A DNA stretch of 64,000 nt from Blepharisma japonicum (Eukaryota; Ciliophora; Heterotrichea; Heterotrichida; Blepharismidae): the NCBI GenBank assembly GCA_949751835.1, contig CATKHK010000045.1, forward strand, positions 1 through 64,000. The letters run 5' to 3'. The position numbers and the translations under genes were made by a program. Shown here piece by piece: positions 126 to 27,370 of the stretch. The notes beneath the pieces were generated by a model. That model was not told the DNA's origin. It worked only from the letters and a program-made list of their open reading frames with translations, and ran no database searches. Position 1 is the stretch's first letter. Each line of letters begins with the position of its first letter.

Positions 126-446
126 TTATCAGTTACAAATAAAAATAAAGTCAAAAAGAATATGAACAATGCAAACAATAAGGGGAGCTTGGGCATATGC
201 GCGGACTTCAGCCATGTCTCTGTCAGAAATATGTTTTAGAAAGATACCTCTATTTGGAAAATTCGTAGCTAAATTATCATAATGGTTGCAAGCTATCTTC
301 AGAAGAATTTCTTGTTGCTTTAATAAATCAATTTCTAGCTTATTAGCCTCAATAAGGTGGATAAGCTTTGACCTGAGATTGACTGCAGCTACTTCTAAGC
401 TACTACTTTGATCAAGACTTTTTATTAGCTCTAAATAAATTTTCAT
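126..446 (-). pseudogene. Truncated copy 1 of the dynein stalk/MTBD-like family
   Basis: This encodes 106 residues from the ATG at 446 to a TAA at 126-128, reading one TGA as Trp. The first 80 or so residues match the coiled-coil start of the intact copies downstream (LIHLIE, QQEILL, ACNHYD). After the point where those copies run on with VAEA, this one diverges and stops within about 15 codons, so it lacks nearly all of the putative microtubule-binding domain. It is either a frameshifted pseudogene or a short coiled-coil product. The truncation is visible in the sequence; loss of function is inferred. Confidence 0.6.
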
Positions 447-475
447 AATAATTATTTAATTTTGTATAAGAATTT

Positions 476-601
476 TTAATAATCAATTTCTTGTTTAGCA
501 TTCTCAATGAGGTGGATAAGTTTAGACTCGAGATTGATTGCAGCTGCTTCTAAGCGAATACTTTCTTCAACACTTTTTATTAACTCTAAATAAATTTTCA
601 T
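476..601 (-). pseudogene. N-terminal fragment of the dynein stalk/MTBD-like family
   Basis: Only the first 41 codons of the family are present, from ATG (599-601) to TAA (476-478), just upstream of copy 1. The first 40 residues closely match the family N-terminus, and then the match ends. This looks like the scar of an unequal exchange or partial tandem duplication. It is unlikely to be a functional gene on its own. Confidence 0.6.
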
Positions 602-1184
602 AATAATTATTATAAAACTTTCAGCTTAATAGAGAAACAATAAATAAAATTTAAACTTATTATTTCAGAAATTAAATAATGATCACAGTTCTGTGATTTG
701 AGGGGTATAAAATAATTTCTTCCTTAGTGGATGTTCGATTTGATCTCTTTTCAGATTAATAGCGGGATTTGAATTGAGTTTTTCTATTCAAAATTGGAAT
801 AGAAGGTGGTCTTGTAGTTTGATAGTAAAAACTTCTTTTTACCAAAATGGAAGTATAATAGCTCAAATTAGTGAAGTATGTCAAATAAGGTTAATTGAGA
901 GTCGCTGCTCATGACCTAAAGCTTCTGACTAATAGTGAAAGATTGTTTACATTTTATAAACCATTCGCTTATTAATTTCAATTAGGTCTTGTTAATAATA
1001 TCCAACTTCTCATCTCACCCTTCATCCCCTATCTAGGATCATAGATCAGTCTCTATCCCCTCTTAATGTGCAAGATTTTTTTATTAAATTGCATATTTTA
1101 ATAATTCACTTAATAAGATTATACACAAATCATTATTTTTTAGAAATAGGGATTTGCATCCTTTAATTTAAGATTAAAAAATAT
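602..1184. other. Spacer of the tandem array
   Basis: No gene is seen. The spacer carries blocks that recur upstream of the other array copies: a stretch around 690-760 that recurs near 1,980, 4,500, 5,660 and 7,590, and a C-rich pyrimidine block at about 1,010-1,065 that recurs near 2,756-2,800 and 6,210-6,265. Confidence 0.6.
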
Positions 1185-1895
1185 TTAAGTTTGTCCTAAA
1201 ATTTTTATGATAATTGGAAGCTCAATATTTTCTAATAAATCAAGTTCTACTTCTTTATTTTTTATCATAGCACTGACTACTTCCAAATGGTTATATTCCA
1301 ACATATCTTTATCTACCAGCTTATCAATTACTTTAAAACTTGAAAGATTTGGGAAATGATCTCTAATTGTAATGGCTCGATCATAAGTAGTTACTAACCA
1401 GCTAAATAAGCCAGTAGCAGCTAAGGAATATCTGTGTAGTATGTTGATATTATTTCTATGAGCATTTACAATTACTCCTAAATCCTGTAGGGTTTGATCA
1501 GAAAGATCATTATAATCAACATTCATTAAAGTTGATCTAAAGGAGAAAAGCTTTCCATAAAAACTCTGTCATTTTTCTTGTATATTTAGAAATGTGCTGA
1601 TTGCTTCTGCAACAATGCATATACTAAGATGAGGACAGGGTAATGAGCGGAGCTCACGCATGTCATTTCATTCAGAAACATTGTTTAAAAAACCGCTTCT
1701 GTCTGGAAAATTCTGAGCTAAATCATCATAATGGTTACAAGCAATCTGGAGAAGAATTTCTTGCTGTTTTAATAAATCAATTTCTTGTTTAGTAGTCTCA
1801 ATAAGGTGAATAAGTTTAGACTCGAGATTGGCTGCTGCTACTCCTAAACTACTATTTTCTTCAACACTTTTTATAATCTCTGAATAAATTTTCAT
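1185..1895 (-). CDS. Standalone dynein stalk/microtubule-binding-domain-like protein, copy 2
   Basis: An intact 236-aa protein running from ATG (1895) to TAA (1185), with in-frame TGAs at residues 76 and 109 read as Trp. Residues 1-75 are predicted coiled coil. Residues 78-182 follow the order of dynein heavy-chain MTBD signatures: D-M-x-E-L-R-S, a proline pair, V-A-E-A, W-x3-Y-G-K, then S-L-A-A-T-G-L-F-S-W-L (157-167) and YDR (171-173), with a proline at 182. Residues 183-236 are again charged and helical, like the returning stalk helix. No AAA+ motor, tail or linker is present; a complete heavy chain exceeds 4,000 residues. It belongs to a minus-strand tandem array. Dynein homology is read from motif order by eye and needs a profile search. 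A microtubule-binding role is inference. Confidence 0.72.
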
Positions 1896-3700
1896 AATAA
1901 TTATTATAAAAGTTTTAGTTTAATAGAGAATCAATCAATTAAAAAAACCCCATTATTTCAGGAATTAAATGAATATCACAGTTCTGTGATGTGAAGGGTA
2001 TAAAGTTATTTTTCTCTTAGTGGACGTTCAATTTAGTCTCTTTTCAGATGAGATTATCTGCTTTGAATCAAGTTTTTAGCATGAAAAAGTTTGAATAGGT
2101 GGTGTTGCGGTTTTGATAGTAAAAATTTTTTTTTCCAAAAAGGCAGTATTTTAGAATTTAGATCCCTAATGGGGTCAATATCTTCCTTAAACAAACCATT
2201 CCCTTAATGAAATGATTTATTCATTTTATTTTTCTACATGTGCTTTATGTTGATTTTCCAATATTTGCTCGACTTTCCAACTAAGCTAAACGATTTCTGT
2301 CAAGCTTAAACTTCCTAGATTCTCCCTCATCACATTTCTCAGATAATTAATTATTTTAATTCTGCTCTTCAAATATAGTTCACATTTTACTACATTCCAC
2401 AATATTAACAGTTAAAAATACATTATAATAGCACAAATTACTGAAGTATGATAAATAAGGGTACAATTCATGGGTTGATAGCGAAAGATATTTAATCATT
2501 TATAGATCATCTGTTTTATTAATTTAATTAGGTGTGGCAATAATTTCAATACATAATCAGTTACTTCTTTATGCCAGAAAGATGTTCAGGATTAAGGTCA
2601 ATTTTCAAATTAAAAAGCTTCATTGTTGTGTTTAAAAATTAAAAATTTTGAATAAGAATTTTATAATAGTTGTTTGATTATTATCTGTGCATTTGCCAAT
2701 TTTGAATAATAACTTATAATAAAATTTTAAGTTTCAACTGTGGATGGTCAAGCACAAATGCCAACCTCTCTCTCCTGTCCCTCCAACCCTCTCTGGATCA
2801 TAGATTCAACCTTCATTTCCAATTAATAAAAAATATCTTGTTTATGAAATTCATATTTATTTTAATAATTAACTTAATAAGATTATTCACAAATTATTAG
2901 AATATTCAGTTTTTGATCTTTAAAGTTTTTGTAAAATGCTATTTATTTATTGATCATAGGATCTTTCAAGCTAAACTCTATATTAAAGATGTCTTTAGTG
3001 AAATATTCATCACTTTTTGCTTTCTTTAAAACAAATTTTTAGGGTCAATTAAATTTTGTAAATTTTAATAACCAGCTGATATTGATTTAATGATTCATAA
3101 GCAAATACAATAAAGGTATGATATCAAGAGGTATAATATTAAGCGATAAATAATGGAATTTTTATACTATTCGATATCTGAAATCTAATTTAAATCTCTA
3201 AATAATATTCAATAGCTCAATTGAATTTAATATTATATTAATTCCAATTTTAGCTTATATTAATTATTTTTATCAAAAATTATTATTAATATTTTTTAAA
3301 GCTATTGAGATAATAAATAAGCCATTTTCCTTATTTCTTAAATAATTCAATTTAAAATAAATCTCATCTTTATAAGCTTTTTGTTTTCAATTCTTGATAT
3401 CAAGTTTCTTATAGATTTATTGTGTGTATCTTTAAAACTTCCTTAACAAATTCTATCAAGAAGCATTTAAGCTTACACTTAAATATTAGTTTATGAATTA
3501 TATTCACGTATTCTAAAATACTAATAATCGAAAATGTGATTAATAAGAGTATTTTATATTTATTACTTACATTGTATATGATAGGAGGCTGGGATAGGGA
3601 TGGGATATATTAAGGAGGTGGAGATGAGATCCATTATTCCAGGGGTGGGGGTGAGATTGGGATCTGTGTCTTTAATTTAAGATAATAAAAAACATATGCT
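1896..3700. other. Long array spacer with C-rich and G-rich blocks
   Basis: There is no convincing gene in about 1.8 kb. A C-rich block at about 2,740-2,830 and a G-rich block at about 3,580-3,660 resemble each other in inverted orientation. The same pair recurs at about 6,190-6,290 and 6,665-6,755 next to copies 4 and 5. The AT-rich interior shares stretches with the second spacer, for example around 2,945 and 6,395. Confidence 0.5.
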
Positions 3701-4405
3701 TTATCCTAAAATTTTCTTAATAATTGGAAGCTGAATATTCTCTAAAAAGTCTAACTCTATTTCTTTATTTTTTATCTTATTACTGACTGCTTCTAAATAG
3801 TTATATTCCAACATTTCTTTATCTACCAGCTTATCAATTTCTTTAAAACTTGAAAGATGTGGGAAATGATCTCTAATTGTAATAGCTCAATCATAAGTAG
3901 TTATTAACCAGCTAAATAAATTACCAGCAGCTATGGACGCATTGCATATATTATTGGCATTATTTCTATGAGCATTTACTATTAATTCTAAATCATGTAG
4001 GGTTTGCTCTGAAAGATCATTATAATCAACATCCATTAAAATCGATGTCCTGCAGATATTAAATTTTCCATAAAAACTCTGTCATTTTTCCTTTATATTT
4101 AGAAATGTGCTGAATGCTTCTGCAACTATGATACAGCTATGGGGAAGTCGATGATATTTATAGAGCTCTAGCATGTCTTTTGAGTCGAAATTTTTAAAAA
4201 AAATACTTCTGCTTGGAAAATTCTGAGCTAACTTATCATAATGCTTGCAAGCTATTTGTAGCAGAATTTCTTGCTGCTTAAATAAATCAATTTCTTGTTT
4301 AGTGGTCTCAAAAAGGTGGATAAGTTTAGACTTGAGATTGTTTGCCGCTAATTCTAAGCTACTACCTTGCTCAACACTTTTAATTAGCTCTGAATAAATT
4401 TCCAT
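3701..4405 (-). CDS. Standalone dynein stalk/microtubule-binding-domain-like protein, copy 3
   Basis: An intact 234-aa protein with start ATG at 4405 and stop TAA at 3701-3703. TGA is read as Trp in EKW and YDW. The layout matches copy 2: N-terminal coiled coil, the D-M-L-E-L segment, V-A-E-A, WQSFYGK, a region around NDLSEQTL, the S-W-L motif followed by YDW and FPHLSSF, then a C-terminal helical segment. The centre is more diverged from copy 2 than from copy 5, which suggests a copy 2/3 and copy 4/5 dimer unit. All three intact copies keep the frame despite divergence, which favours real coding genes. Homology and function carry the same caveats as for copy 2. Confidence 0.7.
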
Positions 4406-4803
4406 AATAATTGTTAATTTTTAATTGATTTTTAATAAAAACTTTAATTCTATAGAATATAAATCAATAATATCTATCTGGAATTAAAGAAAAATAACAT
4501 TTCTGCAGCGTGAAGGGTATAAAGTTACTTTAGCTTTTCCACATGGTCTCTTGCTAGATTAAATTGTCAGCTTTGAATTAAGTTTTTAACATCCACAAAC
4601 CAAAATAAAAGTTCCTCATTGTAATTTTGATACTAAACTTTTTAATTATTTTTCAATAAATCTTTGTCTATGGATATTTTGCAGAAATTTTATGATACTA
4701 ATAATTTATTGAGCTCTTATATAAACTAAGTGATATACATAGAATTGGATTTTTTTATTGGCCTAGCATCCAAAAAATCAGCTGCTTTGGGCTGAAATAG
4801 ATC

Positions 4804-4834
<31 letters not shown>

Positions 4835-4870
4835 CGCTGCCTTTAATTTAAGTTAATTAAAATTATAAGT
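4406..4870. other. Array spacer with TAA microsatellite
   Basis: No gene is seen. It holds the recurrent pre-gene block (about 4,495-4,570), which matches the one upstream of copy 5 more closely than that of copy 2, and a pure trinucleotide run of about ten TAA/AAT units at about 4,804-4,831. Confidence 0.6.
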
Positions 4871-5578
4871 TTATAGTTCTAAAATTTTTTTAATAATTGG
4901 GAGCTCAATGTTTTCTAATAAATTTAGCTCTATTTCTTTCTTTTTTATCATATTATTGACTGTTTCCAAATAGTTATATTCCAAAATTTCTTTATCTACC
5001 AGCTTATGAATTTCTTTAAAACTTGAAAACTGTGGGAAATGATCTCTAATTTTAATAGCTCAATCATAAGTAGCTATTAACCAGCTAAATAAGCCAGTAG
5101 CAGCTAAGGAATATCTGGGTAATATGCTGATATTATTTCGATGAGCATTTACAATTACTCCTAAATCCTGTAGGGTTTGATCTGAAATATCATTATAATC
5201 AACGTCCATAAAAGTAGATGGCCTGAAGGGGTTAAGTTTTCCATAAAAATTCACTCATTTTTCATTTATATTTAGAAATATGCTGATTGATTCTGCAACA
5301 AATCATATACTAGGATGAGGATAGGATTGTGTGCGGAGCTCGCACATGTCTCGGTTAGTAATATTGTTTAAAAATCCACTTCTGTCTGGAAAATTCTGAG
5401 CTAAATCATTATAATGGTTACAAGCTCTCTGAAGCAGAATTTCTTGCTGCTTTAATAAGCCAATTTCTTGTTTAATAGTCTCAATAAGGTGGATAAGTTT
5501 AGACTCAAGATTGGCGGCAGCTTCTTTTAAGCTACTATTTTCTTCAACACTTTTTATTAGCTCCGAATAAATTTTCAT
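4871..5578 (-). CDS. Standalone dynein stalk/microtubule-binding-domain-like protein, copy 4
   Basis: An intact 235-aa protein from ATG (5578) to TAA (4871-4873), with three in-frame TGAs read as Trp (PSIWF, EKWVN, YDWAI). It is close to copy 2 through the SLAATGLFSWL motif. The family order is kept: coiled coil, C-E-L-R, prolines, V-A-E, W, S.AA.GL.SWL, YD, proline, C-terminal coiled coil. Its stop is about 460 bp from the start of copy 3. Read with the standard code it would break into pieces, so it is a good test of UGA=Trp. Confidence 0.72.
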
Positions 5579-6791
5579 AATTATTATATAAAAATTTTAA
5601 CTTAATAGAGAATATATCAATAAATTTAATCTCATTGTTTCAGGAATTAAATGAAGATCACAGTGTGATGTGAAGGTATAAGTTATTTTTCGCTTAGTGG
5701 ATATTCGATTTGATCTCTTTCCAGATTAGATAATGGCTTTGAATTAAGTTTTTAGCAGGCAAAAGTTAGAATAGAAGGCTGTCTTGTAGTTTTGATAGTA
5801 AAAATTTATTTTTTTATTAAAATGGCAGTATAAAGCAAGCTAAAATTCAAAATAGTGAATTATGGCAAATAAGGGTTGCTATTCATATTCATAAAGCTTC
5901 GGACTGATGGTGGTGGAAGATATTTCATCTTTTATAGACTATCCGCCTTATTAATTTTAATTAAGTGTTGAGAATAATCTCAATACATTGTGATCAGTAG
6001 ATTCTTTAGAATAGATAGATATTAAGGATTAATGCCAATTTTTAAATAAAAATGCATGTTCTCAAACAAAATTTAAAAAGTTTAGAAATAAATACCAATT
6101 TTATAATTATGGTTCGATATTACTATGCATTTATAGGCAAACTTTTATTAATTTTGAATAAGTATAAGAGAATTTTAGTTTCAACTGTGGATGGTCAAGC
6201 AGAGATCCAACATCTCACTCCCACCCTTTTCTCTCTGGGATATAGATTCAACCTCTATCCCTTCTTAATGAGAAAATTTTTTATGAAATTTGCATATTTA
6301 TTTTAATAATTAACTTAATGAAATTCTAGCAAATTTATACTTGTTAGAATATTTATAGTTTGATCTTTAAAGCTTTTATAAAATGCTATTTATTTATTGA
6401 TCATAGGATCTTCCAAGTTAAGCACTTATATTAAAGATGCCTTTGGCTATATATTCATCACTTTTTAGTTTCTTTAAAACAAATTTTTGATATCTATCAG
6501 CTTCTTATATACTTATTGTGCGCACCTATAAAACTTCCTTAAAAAATTCTATCAAGAAGTATTGAAGCTTATACTTAAATATTAGTTTATGAATTATATT
6601 CACATATTATAAAATACTAATAATCGAAAATGTGATTAATAAAAGCTTTTTATATATTATATATGATAGGGGTATAGGGAGCGGGGATGATAATGGGATA
6701 TATTAAGGGGGTGTAGATGAGATTGATTATTCCAAGGATGGGGGTGAGGTGGGATATGTGTCTTTAATTTAAGATAATAAAAATCATAAAC
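5579..6791. other. Array spacer, second C-rich/G-rich pair
   Basis: No gene is supported; a short plus-strand frame at 6,052-6,306 crosses repeat sequence and is treated as chance. The C-rich block (about 6,190-6,290) and G-rich block (about 6,665-6,755) are the counterparts of those in the 1.8-kb spacer. Confidence 0.5.
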
Positions 6792-7486
6792 TTATCCTAA
6801 AATTTTCTTAATAATTGGAAGCTGAATATTTTCTAAAAATACTAGCTCTATTTCTTTATCTTTTATCTTATTCCTGACTGCTTCCAAATGGTTATATTCC
6901 AAGAGATCTTTATCTACCAGCTTATCAATTTCTTTAAAACTTGAAAGATGTGGGAAATGATCTCTAATTGTAATAGCTCAATCATAAGTAGTTATTAACC
7001 AGCTAAAAAAATTACCTAAGCTATGCATTCATTGTATATACTATTATTTCTACGAGCATTTATAATTAATCCTAAATCCATAAGGATTTGCTCAGAAAGA
7101 TCATTATAATCAACATTCTTTAAAGTCGATTTCGTCAAGATATTATATTTTCCATAAATAATCTGTCATCTTTCCTTCATATTTAGAAATGTGCCGCTTG
7201 CTTTTGCAATCACGATAATTTCATAGTAAAGTACTCTTTTGAGATGCAATGACATTTCTTTTTGGGACATATTTTCAACAAAAACATTTCTGCTTTGAAA
7301 ATTCTTAGCTAAATCCTCATAATGTTTACAAGCTATCTGCAGCAAAATTTCTTGCTGCTTAAATAAATCAATTTCTTGTTTAGTAGTCTCAATGAGATGG
7401 ATAAGTTTAGACTTGAGATTGGTTGCGGCTGCTTCTAAGCTACTGCCTTGCTCAACACTTTTAATTAGCTCCGTATAAATTTCCAT
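6792..7486 (-). pseudogene. Frameshifted dynein stalk/MTBD-like copy 5
   Basis: The start (ATG 7486) and N-terminal coiled coil are well preserved and close to copy 3. The frame hits TAG at 7016-7018, after 156 residues, just before the S-W-L motif. The rest of the family, including the motif and the C-terminal helix down to TAA at 6792-6794, is still recognisable but out of frame. The full span is 695 bp, not a multiple of three, compared with 705 in copy 3. The GT...AG interval near the break is 13 nt and lies after the stop, so an intron does not rescue it. It is a young pseudogene or encodes a truncated product. Confidence 0.65.
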
Positions 7487-7995
7487 AATAATTCTTAATT
7501 TTATAATTTGTTTTTATTTACAACTCTTGCTCTATAGAATACATATAAATAATATTATACTCAAATTGTTTCTGGAATTATAGAAAAATCGCATTTCTGT
7601 AGCGTGAAGGGTATAAAGTTGCTTTGCCTTTTCTTATGATCTCTTGCCCAATATAAATTATCAGATTTAGTTAAGTTTTTAAACATCCACAAACCAAGAT
7701 AGAAGTCCTCATTATAATTTATTTTTTTCAATGAATCCTCGTCTGTGGATATTTTTTATACTGAAATAATAAAATGATTTGCCAATGGCTTCATTTTTAT
7801 TTTAACACATCAAAAGTTATCAAATAGGTATTTAATAAATGGGGTATCTCTGAGAATTTATTTTAATTAATTTGTGAAAAAAACTGAATATTTTGATTGT
7901 GTTATCTTAAATATTAATTATGAAATTAATAATTAATTCAATAAAATAAATTATCAAATAATAGTAAATTATGAATTAAAACATAAATTCTTGAA
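7487..7995. other. Intergenic, end of the array
   Basis: The first 180 bp or so repeats the pre-gene block seen upstream of copy 3. The rest is AT-rich with no supported gene. Confidence 0.6.
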
Positions 7996-21513: not shown

Positions 21514-22689
21514 ATGAAATGCTATTTTTGTACAGAAGAGACAGAACATTTTTGTATATGTCGAAGTAAAAGTTCAGTTGTCTGTGAAAAGCACGCTTCT
21601 TACCACACAATTGAAAACCCTTTTTCTTCCCATTGATTTGATAAAATTGATTATTATCCAAATGATCAAGAGAAATCCCAGCTTACCGAAGCAATAACCA
21701 AAAACATATCAACTTTGGAAACTATAAAAGAGAATAAAATAAAAGAAAAATACCAAGAAATCGGAGAAATCTTAGGAGAATTAAAAATTTTATTAGAGAA
21801 AGCTGATGAAGATATATCAAATCTTAATTATCTATCGAAACAAGTAATTTCTTCAAAAAGTTTCTCAAAGATTGAGAATTTTCCAATTGTTTCACTGTTT
21901 AATTCTTCGTATGAAGAAGTAATAAAAATCCTTGCAGATAATGGGTGATTAAATTTTCAAAATTTTATTTCAAAAATCAACCCAAAATATACATGTAATG
22001 AAACACAAACTGAAGACTTAGACCAAAAACCTTTGTTCTATTTTCCTATATTTGAACCCCCAAAAGTGCAATTACAATCAAATGATGTTAGTATTCCATA
22101 TAGAGCTCCATTAGTATCGCTAAAATCAAATGTAGTGTGGTCAAAACTCACTGAAGATGGAAATTTTACGCCATATTGCAAAGATGATAACGACATAATC
22201 GAAAGTGCATATCAAAATGGGGATCCTTTTACTTATATAGATGATTCAAATATTATAAATTTAACATACCCAATTTTTGAAGTTCAAAGAACAAAAAGCT
22301 TAATTACAATGGTTTTAAGAAATAATAGGAAAGATACTTTTGATGCTATAGCCAAATTTGAGTCTTGATATTTTAAAGGCGACAAAGGATGGGAAGCAAT
22401 GGCTCCTGATACTTCAAGAATGGCTGAATGGGCACTCCAGAATGATTATAATGAAGCTTTAATTCAATCGAAAAATAAGAAATCATACCGACTTGACTTA
22501 AAAAATATGAAGCAGATTAATCTTAAAACAAATTCTAAAAGAGATATTAGAAGAGGCTATGAGCCAAACATTGTAGAAGAGGTAAAGAATGACATTAAGC
22601 TAACGGGGCTACAATCAAAGCGATTTACTTCCTCAAAATCACCTATACAGATTAAGAGGAGAAGCTCATGAAATTCTGACTATGATTAA
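21514..22689 (+). CDS. B-box-like/coiled-coil/double-WWE protein, copy 1
   Basis: A 391-aa protein from ATG (21514) to TAA (22687-22689), with TGA as Trp at several conserved sites (SHWFD, NGWLN, SWYFK). Residues 1-45 have a Cys/His zinc-binding pattern like a B-box (C-x2-C, C-I-C, V-C-x2-H). A helical coiled-coil spans about 60-120. A first WWE-like module starts at W209 (WSKLTEDGNFTPY). The second, more canonical WWE spans about 285-347 (WYFKGDKGWEAM, then KNMKQINLKTN and R-D-I-R-R). WWE domains in other proteins bind iso-ADP-ribose or mediate ubiquitin and ADP-ribose contacts. No RING or PARP domain is present. First of four tandem paralogues. Confidence 0.75.
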
Positions 22690-23173
22690 TATATTTATTA
22701 CAATGATTTAAAATAAAGCCTCTTATTTTTTGTTATAATCGGGGTTATGTAAAATAATAAATTTAAACCTGAATAAATTTCATTTAGAATGGGAAATCGA
22801 AAGACTCCGATTCATTATAATTTATAAATTGAATAAGGTATGAAGATCTCTAATCAAGATTTACATCCGATGAAAAATAAAAAGAATTTTAATCGATTAA
22901 TTCTATAATATTTAAATTGAGAAGGCTTCATCAAATTATATCTTCACAGAAAAATTTAATTTATTCAGAAGCAATAAAATACTCCCCCAAATATAATTCA
23001 AAGCAAAAAGAGTTTACCTAGATATATTATAATCTTAGAATTGTTAAATTTATTTAATACTTAAACCTAATTATATAAAATTTTCTTTTACGCTCATTTA
23101 TAGTTTCTATAATTTTAACCATCTTACCTTAATTATTAGCTTAATTATTTCATTATATATAGGAAGCTATTAA
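22690..23173. other. Spacer between array genes
   Basis: AT-rich, no gene. The stretch just before the next ATG is related to that before copy 1. Confidence 0.5.
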
Positions 23174-24358
23174 ATGAAATGCTTTTTCTGTACAGCAGAG
23201 ACAGAGTATTTTTGCATATGCCGAAGCAAAAGCTCAATTGTCTGTGAAAGGCATATTTCTTCCCACACAAATGAGAATTCTCAAGTTCATCATAGTCTTG
23301 AAAAGATTGACCATTATCCAAGTAGCGAAGAAAAAATCAGACTTGCCAAAACCTTAAAGGAAAAAATCAGTATATTAGAGATCATAAAAGCTAATAAAAT
23401 AAAAGAAAAATATCAAGAATTTGGAAAAATCTTAAGTGAATTGAAAAAAGTATCAGAAATTATTGATGAAGATATATTAAAGCTTAGCTGTCTTTTAAGC
23501 GCAATATTTTCTTCAAATAAGTTCTCGAGGATTGAGAATTCTGCTATTGTTTTGTTATTTAATTCGTCTTATGAAGAAGCAATAAAAATACTTGAAGATA
23601 ATGGGTGGTTAAATTTTAAAAGTTTCGTTCCCAAAATTAGCTCAACTTATCAGTGAAAGGAAGCACAAGAAACAAGTTTAGGTAAAAAATCTTTAGATTC
23701 AAAGAGTTTATCCTATTCAGAGGATATTGTAAAAATTCCTGAATTCCAGGATAATCAAACCAGTCGTGAAATGCCAAATTCAAATGCAGTGTGATCAAAA
23801 CTCACTGAAGATGGAAATTTTGTCCCATATGGCAAAGCTGATAATGACATAATTGAAAGCGCATATCAAAAAAAGTATCCGTTTGCCATTATAGTAGGTT
23901 CAAATAGTCAATGCTATGTAAATTTAATATCCCCAATGCTAGAAATTCAAGAGGAAAAAAAAGTGGCCACAAGTGTTATTAGAAATAATAGTATAGAGAT
24001 TTTTGATTCTAAAGACAAATTTGTGTCTTGGTATTTTAAAGGCGACAAAGGATGAGAAGAAATGAATGTTGCAGCTTCAAGAATGGCTGAATGGGTATAT
24101 CAGAATAAGTATAATGAAGTACTTATTCAAGGGGAAAATAAGAAGCCATACATACTTGACGTGAAAAATATGAAGCAGGTGAATCCTAAAACAAATTATA
24201 AAAGAAAAATTAGAAGGGGCAATGCGCCAGATAAGGCAGAAGAGATTAAGAAAGGCATTAGAATAACTGCGCCGCTTCCAATACGAAATAGTAGCACAAT
24301 GGCTGAAGAATTAAATCTTAGCATATCAAGTTCTTCAAGCAGTGACTCTGATATTTAA
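23174..24358 (+). CDS. B-box-like/coiled-coil/double-WWE protein, copy 2
   Basis: A 394-aa protein closest to copy 1. The zinc-binding N-terminus (CFFCTAETEYFCICRS) and the coiled coil are conserved. Where copy 1 uses TGA in NGWLN, this copy uses TGG, which is internal support for UGA=Trp. The first WWE-like module begins at WSKLTEDGNFVPY and the second at SWYFKGDKGWEEM, continuing to MKQVNPKTNYKRKIRR. It ends in a basic linker and a Ser-rich acidic tail (SISSSSSSDSD), a candidate phosphorylation site cluster. Confidence 0.75.
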
Positions 24359-24597
24359 AAAAAATTATGATAATTATATATAGCCTTCTAGGGTAGCTTG
24401 CCTTAGTAGAACTTTTTGGTGCAATAAAATCTGACTTTTTGTTTTTCATACAAAAGCTTAATAAAAATATTGTTTTTAGCTCTACCTGTTTCGATGCAAA
24501 CCATTAAATATGTGTATAAATTTTCGATTATATTTCAAAAATCCATATTTTGAAACTTTAACTAATTAAACCCTTCATTTTATAGAATTTGTATTAA

Positions 24598-25704
24598 ATG
24601 AATTGTGCAGTTCTCAGCTGCTCATTTGAGGCTGAATATTTTTGCTCATGTGAAGGAAAATGAACAATGCTGTGCAAAGAGCATGTGCTGTCTCATATTG
24701 GAGATATGCATCAGCCTAGCAATCTTTACTATATCCCAAGCTATAATGAAAGGCATGAGCTGGCCTTAAATTTACATCAAAAAATTAAAAATTTAGAGGC
24801 AAAAAAAGTCAATAAAATAAAAGAAAGCTATCTTGAGCTTGAAAAAATCATTAATAACCTAAAAAACATTGTAGATTCCGTTGAAAAAGACATAGAAAAG
24901 CTCCATAGTTTCATAAAAAAAATAATTGTAGCACCTAAATTCTCAAGGTTTGATAAGACCTGCTATCTATTTAATTCCACTTATGAATCAACTATTAAAA
25001 CTCTAGAAAACTATCAATTCATAAATCCTGAAGAAATAATCTCGAAATTTTCATATATAGACAATCAATTATGCCAAGATTTGCACAATTTAAAAGTAGC
25101 CCAAAATGAAGAGCCTAAAGTTATCTGGTCGAAACTTGGAGAAAATGGAGAATTTGCCCCTTATAGCCAAGCTGAAAATGAAATAATTGAAAACAACTAT
25201 CAAAAAGGTGAGACTCGCTCTTATATAGGAGACAGAAATAGCTCATGCTACATCAATTTAAAATGTCCAACAATCGAAGTTCAAGAAAATTCAAAAAAGG
25301 CTGTAACAGTTATCAGGAATGACAGCACAAGAGCATCTGATTCTTATAAAAGTCTAAACTCAAATCTTGATATACAATGGTACTTTCAAGTCGATAAAGG
25401 ATGGGAAAAAATGACTTCAGAAGCTTCAAGAATAGCTGAATGGGCATTTCAAAATAATTTTCATGAAGCTTTAGTTCAAAACCGCAATTCGTATAAAATT
25501 GATGTGAAAGAAATGAAACAAACTAATTTGCGAACAAATTATAAAAGAGACATCAAAAGAGGAGACAGCTCAGAAAATAAAAGGAACGCTTCAAGAGATG
25601 ATTACAAAACTGATTATAGAAATGTTAGCGCAACGCCAAAAATAGCTAATAAAAGTCGTGAAGAAATGACCAATTCAACAAACACGATCCCTCTTAAGAG
25701 ATAA
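24598..25704 (+). CDS. B-box-like/coiled-coil/double-WWE protein, copy 3
   Basis: A 368-aa protein starting at ATG 24598, with a TGA Trp at residue 23 (GKWTML). Zinc ligands are C3, C8, C16, C18, C26 and H29, with further His downstream (LSHIGDMH). The coiled coil is at about 55-110. The first WWE-like module begins WSKLGENGEFAPY. The second begins IQWYFQVDKGWEKM and reaches MKQTNLRTNYKRDIKR. The tail is polar and basic. It has diverged from copies 1 and 2 and groups with copy 4 (SHIGD, FxFDK). Confidence 0.75.
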
Positions 25705-26461
25705 TATAAACTTCTAAGCTTAATTATAGCCAATTTAATAAAATTTGTTTTGTGTGACTTTTGTAGTAAAACAAATCAAGAGGATTTTGATTCCAGATAA
25801 CAATTGAGCTTTGAGATTTTTAAAATTGACAAAGTTTAGAAATGACTCCTGAAGTTTCAAGAATGGCAGATCGGCATATTTAAACTTAAGCTTAAGATAT
25901 TTACTTCTTGTTTTAGCATCGTGCCCAAGGTACCACCTTACACCTCGCTCTACTGCTTCTCAAGAAAATTAGAAAAGCAAATTATTGGGTTAGCTTCTGC
26001 TGAAAAAGGAAATATGTGGCTAAAGGCGCAACTCCCAGCATCATGTTGGATTCTCCGATTGGCCTAGTAAATACTTAGACTATGCTGGCTTATCCTTCCA
26101 GCCCCGTGAAACTTCCTCCCATGAGGAAAAAAATGAGCTGTGAAAGTAGGCTCTGCCACCCATGAAATTTTTTGCCTGGCTTTGCTGCCTTATTCTGAGC
26201 TATTAAAAATTTTGGTCAGGTATAGTTAAATAATACTCAAAGCTGCCTTCAGGAAGGCTAGGCCAGTCTGAAATACCATATTCAATTATTCAAAATAGAT
26301 ACATCAAAAAAGCACTATAAAGCTTTAATTAAACATAAAATAAGAAATCATCCTATTGGGACTTTTCTATTAGACTAATAAAATATTTTAATTCATTCAT
26401 AAGACTTAATATTTCTTTATAAAATTTAAAAATAATTTACTTATTATAGAAATTATCCAAT
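25705..26461. other. Spacer with a decayed WWE copy and a GC-richer island
   Basis: About 25,755-25,885 is a remnant of another array copy: it still reads MTPEVSRMAD, but with a TAG and shifts around it. It is followed at about 25,915-26,285 by a segment clearly richer in G+C than other spacers here, with no long open frame and with local inverted repeats such as GCTGG...CCAGC near 26,079-26,104. It could be a structured non-coding RNA or an inserted element; I could not match it to U snRNAs, SRP RNA, RNase P RNA or a tRNA. Confidence 0.45.
25755..25885 (+). pseudogene. Remnant of a WWE-domain array gene
   Basis: The sequence aligns by eye with the start of the second WWE domain of copies 3 and 4 (the MTPEAS / MTSEAS segment and the preceding F-x-I-D-K), but carries a TAG and loses similarity at the W-x-F-Q-N position. 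It marks a fifth copy that has almost vanished. Confidence 0.55.
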
Positions 26462-27370
26462 ATGAATTGCTATGAATGCCCTTTGGAGGCTGAATATTTT
26501 TGTTCATGTGAAGAAAAATACACAATCTTATGCAAAAATCACATTTATTCTCATATTGGGGATTTGCATAAGCTTAAAAATCTTCACTTCTACCCAGATG
26601 ATAATGAGAGAGAAGAGCTGGCGTTAATATTATATAGAAAAATTAAAGATTTAGAGTCCAAAAAGGAAGAAAAAATAAGAGAAGCATATCAAGAACTTGA
26701 AAAAATCAAAGATAAGCTAAAAAATACCATAAATTTTATTGAAGCAGATATATCAAGCCTTCAAAATTTAACAAAGAAAATATTCACGACAGTGCAGTTC
26801 TTAGGATTTGATAAAATCTGTAGTTTATTTAAGTGCCCATATGAGAAAGCTATAGAAGCTCTGGAAAGCGAAAAATTCATAAATCCGCAGAATTATTCAA
26901 CAGAAATCATACATTGATCAAAACTCGATAAATATGGAGAATTTGTGCCTTATAGCCAAGCCGATAATAGAGAAATTGAAATTGCTTTTCAAAGTGGTAG
27001 AGATGTCGCTTATATAGGAGAAATGAGCAATCAATGCTATGTAGTTTTAGGAAATCAGAAATTAGAAGCTCAAGAAAGAGAAAAAAGAGTAGTGACTGTT
27101 TTAAGGAATGATGGCTCAGGAAAATTTGACCATTATAAATACCTTAATTATTCTACTGAAGAGCAATGGTGATTCGAAATTGATGATAGCAAATGGGAAA
27201 GGATGACCCCAGAAGCTTCAAGAGTTATTGAATGAGCATTTCAAAACGGATTCCCTGAAGCTATAATCCAGATTCGCAGGTCATATAAAATTGACATTAA
27301 GGGTATGAAACAAACCAACTTGCAAAATTATGGCCAAAGGAATATCAAAAGGGGCTATAGCTATATTTAA
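26462..27370 (+). CDS. B-box-like/coiled-coil/double-WWE protein, copy 4
   Basis: A 302-aa protein, the shortest of the four, because the linker between coiled coil and first WWE is reduced and there is no long tail. The zinc-binding N-terminus is CYECPLEAEYFCSC with C-x2-H downstream. The first WWE-like module starts IHWSKLDKYGEFVPY (Trp from TGA). The second starts EQWWFEIDDSKWERM and ends QTNLQNYGQRNIKR. The stop is TAA. Confidence 0.75.

Follow-up and report, generated by a model that had tools for sequence, protein, structure and literature searches.

Candidate motorless dynein stalk-tip genes in tandem in the ciliate Blepharisma japonicum

The microtubule-binding domain (MTBD) of dynein is known as the distal tip of a huge motor, in which ATP acts through a long coiled coil to switch the grip. 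Can such a tip also exist as a gene of its own? The question is raised by the start of contig C45 (CATKHK010000045.1) of Blepharisma japonicum (assembly GCA_949751835.1; 45.2 Mb in 224 contigs), of which the first 64,000 nucleotides, here called the window, were analyzed. An earlier note, made from the letters alone, had described tandem genes at 126–7486 for a dynein stalk and MTBD lacking motor, linker, and tail. Three of these genes are indeed intact and encode 234–236 amino acids (aa), but three other copies turned out to be broken or fragmentary. The intact frames are whole when TGA is read as Trp, as the note had stated, with two, two, and three such codons in 1185–1895, 3701–4405, and 4871–5578, respectively. 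We consider it slightly better than an even chance (probability about 0.55) that the free copies constitute a lineage-specific, dynein-derived family of motorless stalk tips that bind microtubules independently of ATP. Their homology to the stalk, stand-alone architecture, predicted fold, and selection for an open frame are regarded here as established. The copies in the window are the following.

1185..1895, minus strand: intact free MTBD gene, 236 aa (short stalk arm, MTBD, short stalk arm); E 2.3e-9 with the own-genome dynein profile
3701..4405, minus strand: intact free MTBD gene, 234 aa; E 5.9e-9 with the same profile
4871..5578, minus strand: intact free MTBD gene, 235 aa, modeled with AlphaFold; E 3.9e-10 with the same profile
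6792..7486, minus strand: broken fourth copy, with open pieces 7486–7016 and 7013–6792 and a frame change plus stop near 7013–7016
126..446, minus strand: 5′ fragment of another copy, 106 aa, homologous part 446–162
473..601, minus strand: shorter 5′ fragment of a further copy
1896..2065, minus strand: 5′ flank of gene 1185–1895, with element TTTATACCCTTCACATCACAGAACTGTGAT (by eye); repeat family D6

The three intact proteins are 69–78% identical in pairwise alignments, and the motifs that the note had named are present, namely E-L, a proline, V-A-E-A/S, W...FYGK, S-x-A-A-x-x-L-F-S-W-L, YD, and P, the G-L of the note reading N-L in 3701–4405. When 1185–1895 was searched with phmmer against PDB sequences, three of the five matches at E ≤10 were dynein heavy chains (the DNAH2 stalk region being the best at 0.0021, followed by 0.21 and 0.38), and the remaining two were copies of one unrelated enzyme (1.1 and 1.3). 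When a profile was built from the three window copies together with two copies from contig C99, it matched 11 PDB sequences at E ≤10: eight were dyneins (best 6.7e-5), and the other three were a single unrelated protein (0.06–0.08). Alignment of the three window copies by hhalign to the stalks of 12 dynein heavy chains from the same genome reached E 7.3e-9, with a probability of 95.8 over 136 columns. A hidden Markov model (HMM) of these 12 chains was also run on the 326 stop-to-stop window frames of at least 60 aa and on 2000 shuffled free proteins, in which composition is preserved but the helical repeat pattern is not. The three intact copies came out on top of all window frames with the E-values listed above, the next frame being at 0.41; the best shuffle also scored 0.41, and none of the 2000 fell below. 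The broken or short window pieces gave no score by themselves (E 0.8–7.9). As judged by these comparisons, the stalk likeness of the window proteins is greater than chance.

Structure prediction, which the note had proposed as a check for an unrelated fold, points to the dynein stalk instead. The second of two AlphaFold models, made for 4871–5578 from window sequences alone with a different first row and an additional fragment, has a mean pLDDT of 64.6. In a Foldseek search with this model, the first 21 rows were dynein entries, with rows 9e5c_5k and 8bwy_B called dynein by entry title and not by chain name, and VIA-align aligned 189–195 residues. The predicted fold is a helical MTBD between two antiparallel coiled-coil arms.

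A search of the genome with the window protein revealed relatives on contigs C99, C87, and C49, and uninterrupted motorless copies number 10 on four contigs (three on C45, four on C49, one on C30, and two on C99). Broken, cut, or short copies occur on C14 and C87 and in parts of C99 and C49. The uninterrupted copies outside the window, those on C49 being called C49_1 to C49_4, are as follows.

C49, 110555–111214: free MTBD gene in tandem, 219 aa
C49, 112178–112837: free MTBD gene in tandem, 219 aa
C49, 113062–113739: free MTBD gene in tandem, 225 aa
C49, 114388–115065: free MTBD gene in tandem, 225 aa
C30: single free MTBD gene, 217 aa; 8e-7 to a dynein chain
C99: free MTBD gene C99a, 244 aa
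C99: free MTBD gene C99b, start uncertain, 268 aa frame; used from position 2042 of stretch L010

All four C49 proteins exceed the cut-off of 24 bits for PF12777 (MT, the microtubule-binding stalk of the dynein motor), with 30.9, 34.7, 59.8, and 63.9 bits (25.2–60.8 in the genome search), and their profile matches DNAH2 at 2.4e-18. Their many further weak matches to coiled-coil families all lie beneath the cut-offs of those families. These paralogues therefore form a bridge from the Pfam-negative window copies to the dynein MTBD. In total, PF12777 was found at no fewer than 25 places in the genome, four of them the C49 genes. The other 21 lie on different contigs, and their frames vary in length from 255 to 4600 aa between searches (352–4600 aa in the genome search). 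On C45, C49, C30, and C99, this genome search, whose counts are lower bounds, gave no PF12777 match within a long frame. No motor gene was seen to contain any of the 10 uninterrupted copies, whose frames span 217–244 aa between stops (268 aa for C99b), although no direct AAA+ search was made beside them. In each of the eight copies on C45, C49, and C30, a stop lies at most 8 codons before the ATG, and the C49 array and the C30 gene are located in the interior of their contigs between unrelated frames. The note's proposal that the genes are not pieces of longer dynein genes is supported by the missing long-frame matches and the nearby 5′ stops. Its observation is confirmed, and its interpretation of the proteins as motorless dynein stalk/MTBD modules is supported by the profiles, the paralogues that pass PF12777, and the predicted fold.

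The repeat families in the window have copies 63–89% identical to their reference (gaps excluded), and two gene-plus-flank pairs share 82% and 85% identity over 1312 and 1003 aligned positions; the array can therefore be taken to have grown by tandem duplication of gene and flank. Rates of nonsynonymous (dN) and synonymous (dS) change were estimated by the Nei-Gojobori method without correction for codon bias, leaving out the pairs C49_1–C49_4 and C49_2–C49_3. In eight same-array pairs of intact copies dN/dS is 0.48–0.62, and between 3701–4405 and the 5′ piece of the broken copy 7486–6792 it is 0.90; the far pairs C49_3–C30 and W1185–C99a give 0.37 and 0.32, with synonymous sites near saturation. 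One-sided Fisher tests on rounded counts showed an excess of synonymous over nonsynonymous change in six intact pairs (p 0.0003–0.02) and none against the broken copy (p 0.38). In a neutral simulation with the base frequencies of the window and no insertions or deletions, 0–2 of 200 frames stayed open in six pairs. Because the intact pairs lie below neutrality and neutral change so seldom leaves a frame open, the frames are most likely kept open by selection, and they change fast.

On both C49 and C30, a kinase gene lies directly upstream of a free MTBD gene on the same strand (L025:6406–8215 and L051:3981–5864), and a further copy of the kinase gene's 3′ tail precedes the second C49 MTBD gene. 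The two kinases, presumably of AGC type, are paralogous and 90% identical (dN 0.06), whereas the MTBD genes of the two loci are at best 34% identical (dN 0.69 or more). In view of the shared order of kinase and MTBD gene, the two loci most likely derive from one duplication.

How might such proteins work? Each would consist of an N-terminal helix (a short CC1), a compact helical MTBD without the H2–H3 flap, and a C-terminal helix (a short CC2) that folds back on the first. In the common alignment the flap insert is absent from all 10 free copies, and 7 of the 10 begin with M-x-x-Y-S-x-[IL]-[IL]-x-x-[IV]-E (all three window copies, C99a, C49_3, C49_4, and C30). The broken C14 copy begins likewise, C49_1 and C49_2 lack this start, and that of C99b is uncertain. 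The family probably descended once from a dynein heavy chain and then spread through tandem and segmental duplication. The parent was perhaps a flapless inner-arm type such as DNAH2, DNAH6, or DNAH10, a loose choice since, with the best 12 of at least 21 PF12777 places outside C49 aligned, only two were classed by their best PDB match (C73 as DNAH6-like and C2 as DNAH2-like). The grip of dynein's tip changes when ATP in the ring makes CC1 slide relative to CC2, and microtubule binding itself can bring the register to the tight form, presumably by induced fit, as described in passages of PMC7042235. Without an AAA+ ring, the register of a free tip would not be switched by ATP, and the protein may bind and leave dynein's site passively, since binding to the microtubule can set the tight register. 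It could then act as a small dynein-site binder that serves as decoration, spacer, or competitor.

Several results, given here and in the two paragraphs that follow, weigh against this reading. The PF12777 match of the window copies that the earlier note had looked to did not appear, as none of five window proteins matched at E up to 10, nor did the proteins from C30, C99 (both copies), and C14 (one piece); weak Pfam matches of the window copies to unrelated families were taken as chance. Among 426 frames from the flanking stretches, one that could not be related to the family scored 0.0019 with the own-genome dynein HMM and another 0.02; values near 0.001 thus mean little with this model, and the three intact copies score far below that level. 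The first AlphaFold model had a mean pLDDT of 51.4 and no significant structural match, and the second is weak at residues 100–129 and gave a single Foldseek match at E ≤0.001. In VIA-align, three unrelated long-helix rows had a slightly higher Z (10.6–10.8) over 80–86 residues. All 10 free copies fall on one side of a branch (94/83) in a tree built from 118 columns; this branch is not starred and long branches meet in the tree, so that their single origin is favored but not proved.

Among the alternatives, the one that survives best, though we hold it rather unlikely, is that the proteins derive from dynein and no longer bind microtubules, the fold being kept as a scaffold whose surface serves another partner such as a dynein regulator or a ciliary or cortical protein. 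It is the contact residues that bear on this alternative. We take E3378, R3342, and R3382 to be contact positions, E3378 also being the presumed anchor of the mouse numbering. Counted from the motif N-Y-E-I-V-N-R, this numbering places K3299 on a lysine, in accord with the part of PMC6629372 that describes K3299 as directly proximal to D427 of beta-tubulin in the microtubule-bound mouse MTBD. In the common alignment, the three window copies have E, S, and N at K3299, where the E of 1185–1895 hinges on the placement of one inserted residue. Both C99 copies carry N there, two C49 copies carry Q, and C49_3, C49_4, and C30 carry K; the lysine is thus kept in 3 of 10 free copies as against 9 of the 12 own dynein chains aligned. 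The window copies have also lost E3378, and the net charge of their MTBD core is −2, −3, and −2, compared with −1 to +9 for the 12 dynein chains; the remaining free copies range from −3 to +2. A partner other than the microtubule would also suit the loss of P3311 and R3306 in the C99 copies, the fast nonsynonymous change in frames that are kept, and the core packing residues retained in the window copies, where E3304, R/K3306, P3311, W3333, S3384, both alanines, and W3393 persist. However, K3299 is present in C49_3, C49_4, and C30, arginines occur at R3342 and R3382 in part of the copies (in three of three and two of three window copies, respectively), and several of these positions are variable in the genome's own dynein chains as well. 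Owing to the lost K3299 and the acidic core, microtubule binding by the window branch is uncertain, and the loss of K3299 speaks partly against a window-branch binder that competes with dynein. The window copies may bind weakly, recognize modified tubulin, or have another partner, and the K3299-keeping copies C49_3, C49_4, and C30 appear to fit a passive binder better than they do.

It is still less likely that the family is in decay, made up of drifting duplicates of a former dynein-tip gene with no present role. Half of the six window copies are broken (7486–6792, 446–126, and 601–473), as are C14 and one copy on C99; dN/dS in the intact pairs is not low; and the rapid change of the MTBD genes next to their conserved kinase neighbors fits relaxed constraint too. 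Decay is nevertheless difficult to reconcile with the synonymous excess that is seen in the intact pairs and not against the broken copy, with the neutral simulation, or with the finding that uninterrupted copies number 10, occur on four contigs, and stand in one and the same kinase–MTBD order on C49 and C30.

That the proteins are unrelated coiled-coil proteins whose stalk likeness stems from composition is highly improbable and in our view already refuted jointly by hhalign, the C49 matches to PF12777, and the own-genome dynein HMM: the window copies do lack a Pfam dynein match, many long-helix folds reach a similar Z, and an unrelated frame attained 0.0019, but no composition-matched shuffle approached the intact copies and the aligned region is the globular MTBD and not coiled coil only. 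Just as improbably, the copies would be exons of complete dynein heavy chain genes that the assembly or ciliate introns have split; the window does begin at a contig end and tiny introns occur in such genomes, according to sections of PMC9942806, but the missing long-frame matches, the stops close before the ATG, and the interior position of the C49 array and the C30 gene speak against it.

The genomic setting agrees with what is expected of the genus. The kinase gene beside the C49 array contains an in-frame stop, which a 15-base intron would explain, and the telomere repeat CCCTAACA gave 77 forward and 91 reverse matches (control 0). For B. stoltei, sections of PMC9942806 give a genome of 41 Mbp, smaller than the assembly analyzed here, with UGA as Trp, the same telomere, and introns mostly of 15 and 16 bp; TGA as Trp, the telomeres, and the possible 15-base intron would thus agree with Blepharisma as described there. 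The start of C87 (L029:261–932) is a cut copy of the window array with 78–83% DNA identity, and the assembly may have broken inside the array repeat at both contig ends. Inspection by eye showed the variable element TTTATACCCTTCACATCACAGAACTGTGAT 5′ of five of the six window copies, the exception being 446–126, and a variable element near TTTATACCCTTCAC..CACAG..CTGTG in the flanks 1896–2065, 4406–4575, 5579–5748, 602–771, and 7487–7656; none of the latter was seen 5′ of the four C49 copies, C30, C99a, or C14. Also by eye, the window holds at 21514–27370 four plus-strand tandem frames of 391, 394, 368, and 302 aa, which appear to form a single family, Cys-rich at the start and without relation to the MTBD genes, and at C99:139500–148500 (L010) the free MTBD genes alternate with a repeated family of 279–287 aa frames and with membrane-protein-like frames.

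What is known here is the MTBD domain; what appears to be new is its use as a multiplied stand-alone gene family, which suggests that dynein's foot can be used by the cell as a protein in its own right. A natural tip-only family, if true, would mean that the module can be lifted out and reused, and would offer a ready set of evolved MTBD variants for asking which residues set grip and register. In heterotrich ciliates, shape changes rest on sliding microtubules, and the family would be a possible competitor for dynein's site in such cells. It is possible, if doubtful, that the free copies represent a natural class of fast-diverging, dynein-derived microtubule-associated proteins that, with no use of ATP, occupy or mark the landing site of dynein on ciliary or cortical microtubules and so tune dynein-driven sliding, with the members lacking K3299 reading differently modified tubulin.

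No description of a free dynein MTBD family was found in the open-access literature searched, and an earlier account may exist in subscription papers; the word ‘dynein’ does not occur in the main text of PMC9942806. Searches of viral contigs with the C49 profile and of genome contigs with the window and C99 profile returned no relative, in collections that are not meant for ciliates and are silent on other heterotrichs. Within the genome, a second motorless context was observed in a 484 aa protein on C3 (222689–224143, minus strand; L053:2690–4144), which combines a UPF0029/IMPACT-type N-terminal part (PF01205, 27.3 bits against a cut-off of 27) with a dynein MTBD-like part at residues 199–340 (E 2.8e-14 with the own-genome dynein HMM); a weak sister of this fusion is present on C47 (L061:1354–2388). 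Like the free copies, the C3 protein carries an MTBD-like region outside a motor, but its N-terminal domain and arrangement are different, and its long branch in the tree lies among the dynein chains and not within the group of free copies. The closest known system is the stalk and MTBD of dynein heavy chains (PF12777; nearest DNAH2, DNAH6, and DNAH10 by PDB matches), which the free copies resemble in profile, in the order of conserved residues, in predicted fold, and in the antiparallel helical arms that flank a compact helical domain. In contrast to the heavy chains, they have no linker, AAA+ ring, or tail in frame, their stalk arms are shorter, most of the uninterrupted copies have a start motif of their own, and the window branch is acidic and has lost K3299. 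In architecture they are also comparable to engineered MTBD constructs, such as the SRS-MTBD fusions 3err and 3j1t and the disulfide-locked MTBDs in passages of PMC7042235, which likewise carry an MTBD on a short stalk with no motor. Those constructs demonstrate that an MTBD in this form is able to fold and to bind microtubules; they are made in the laboratory with a fixed register, whereas the Blepharisma genes are natural.

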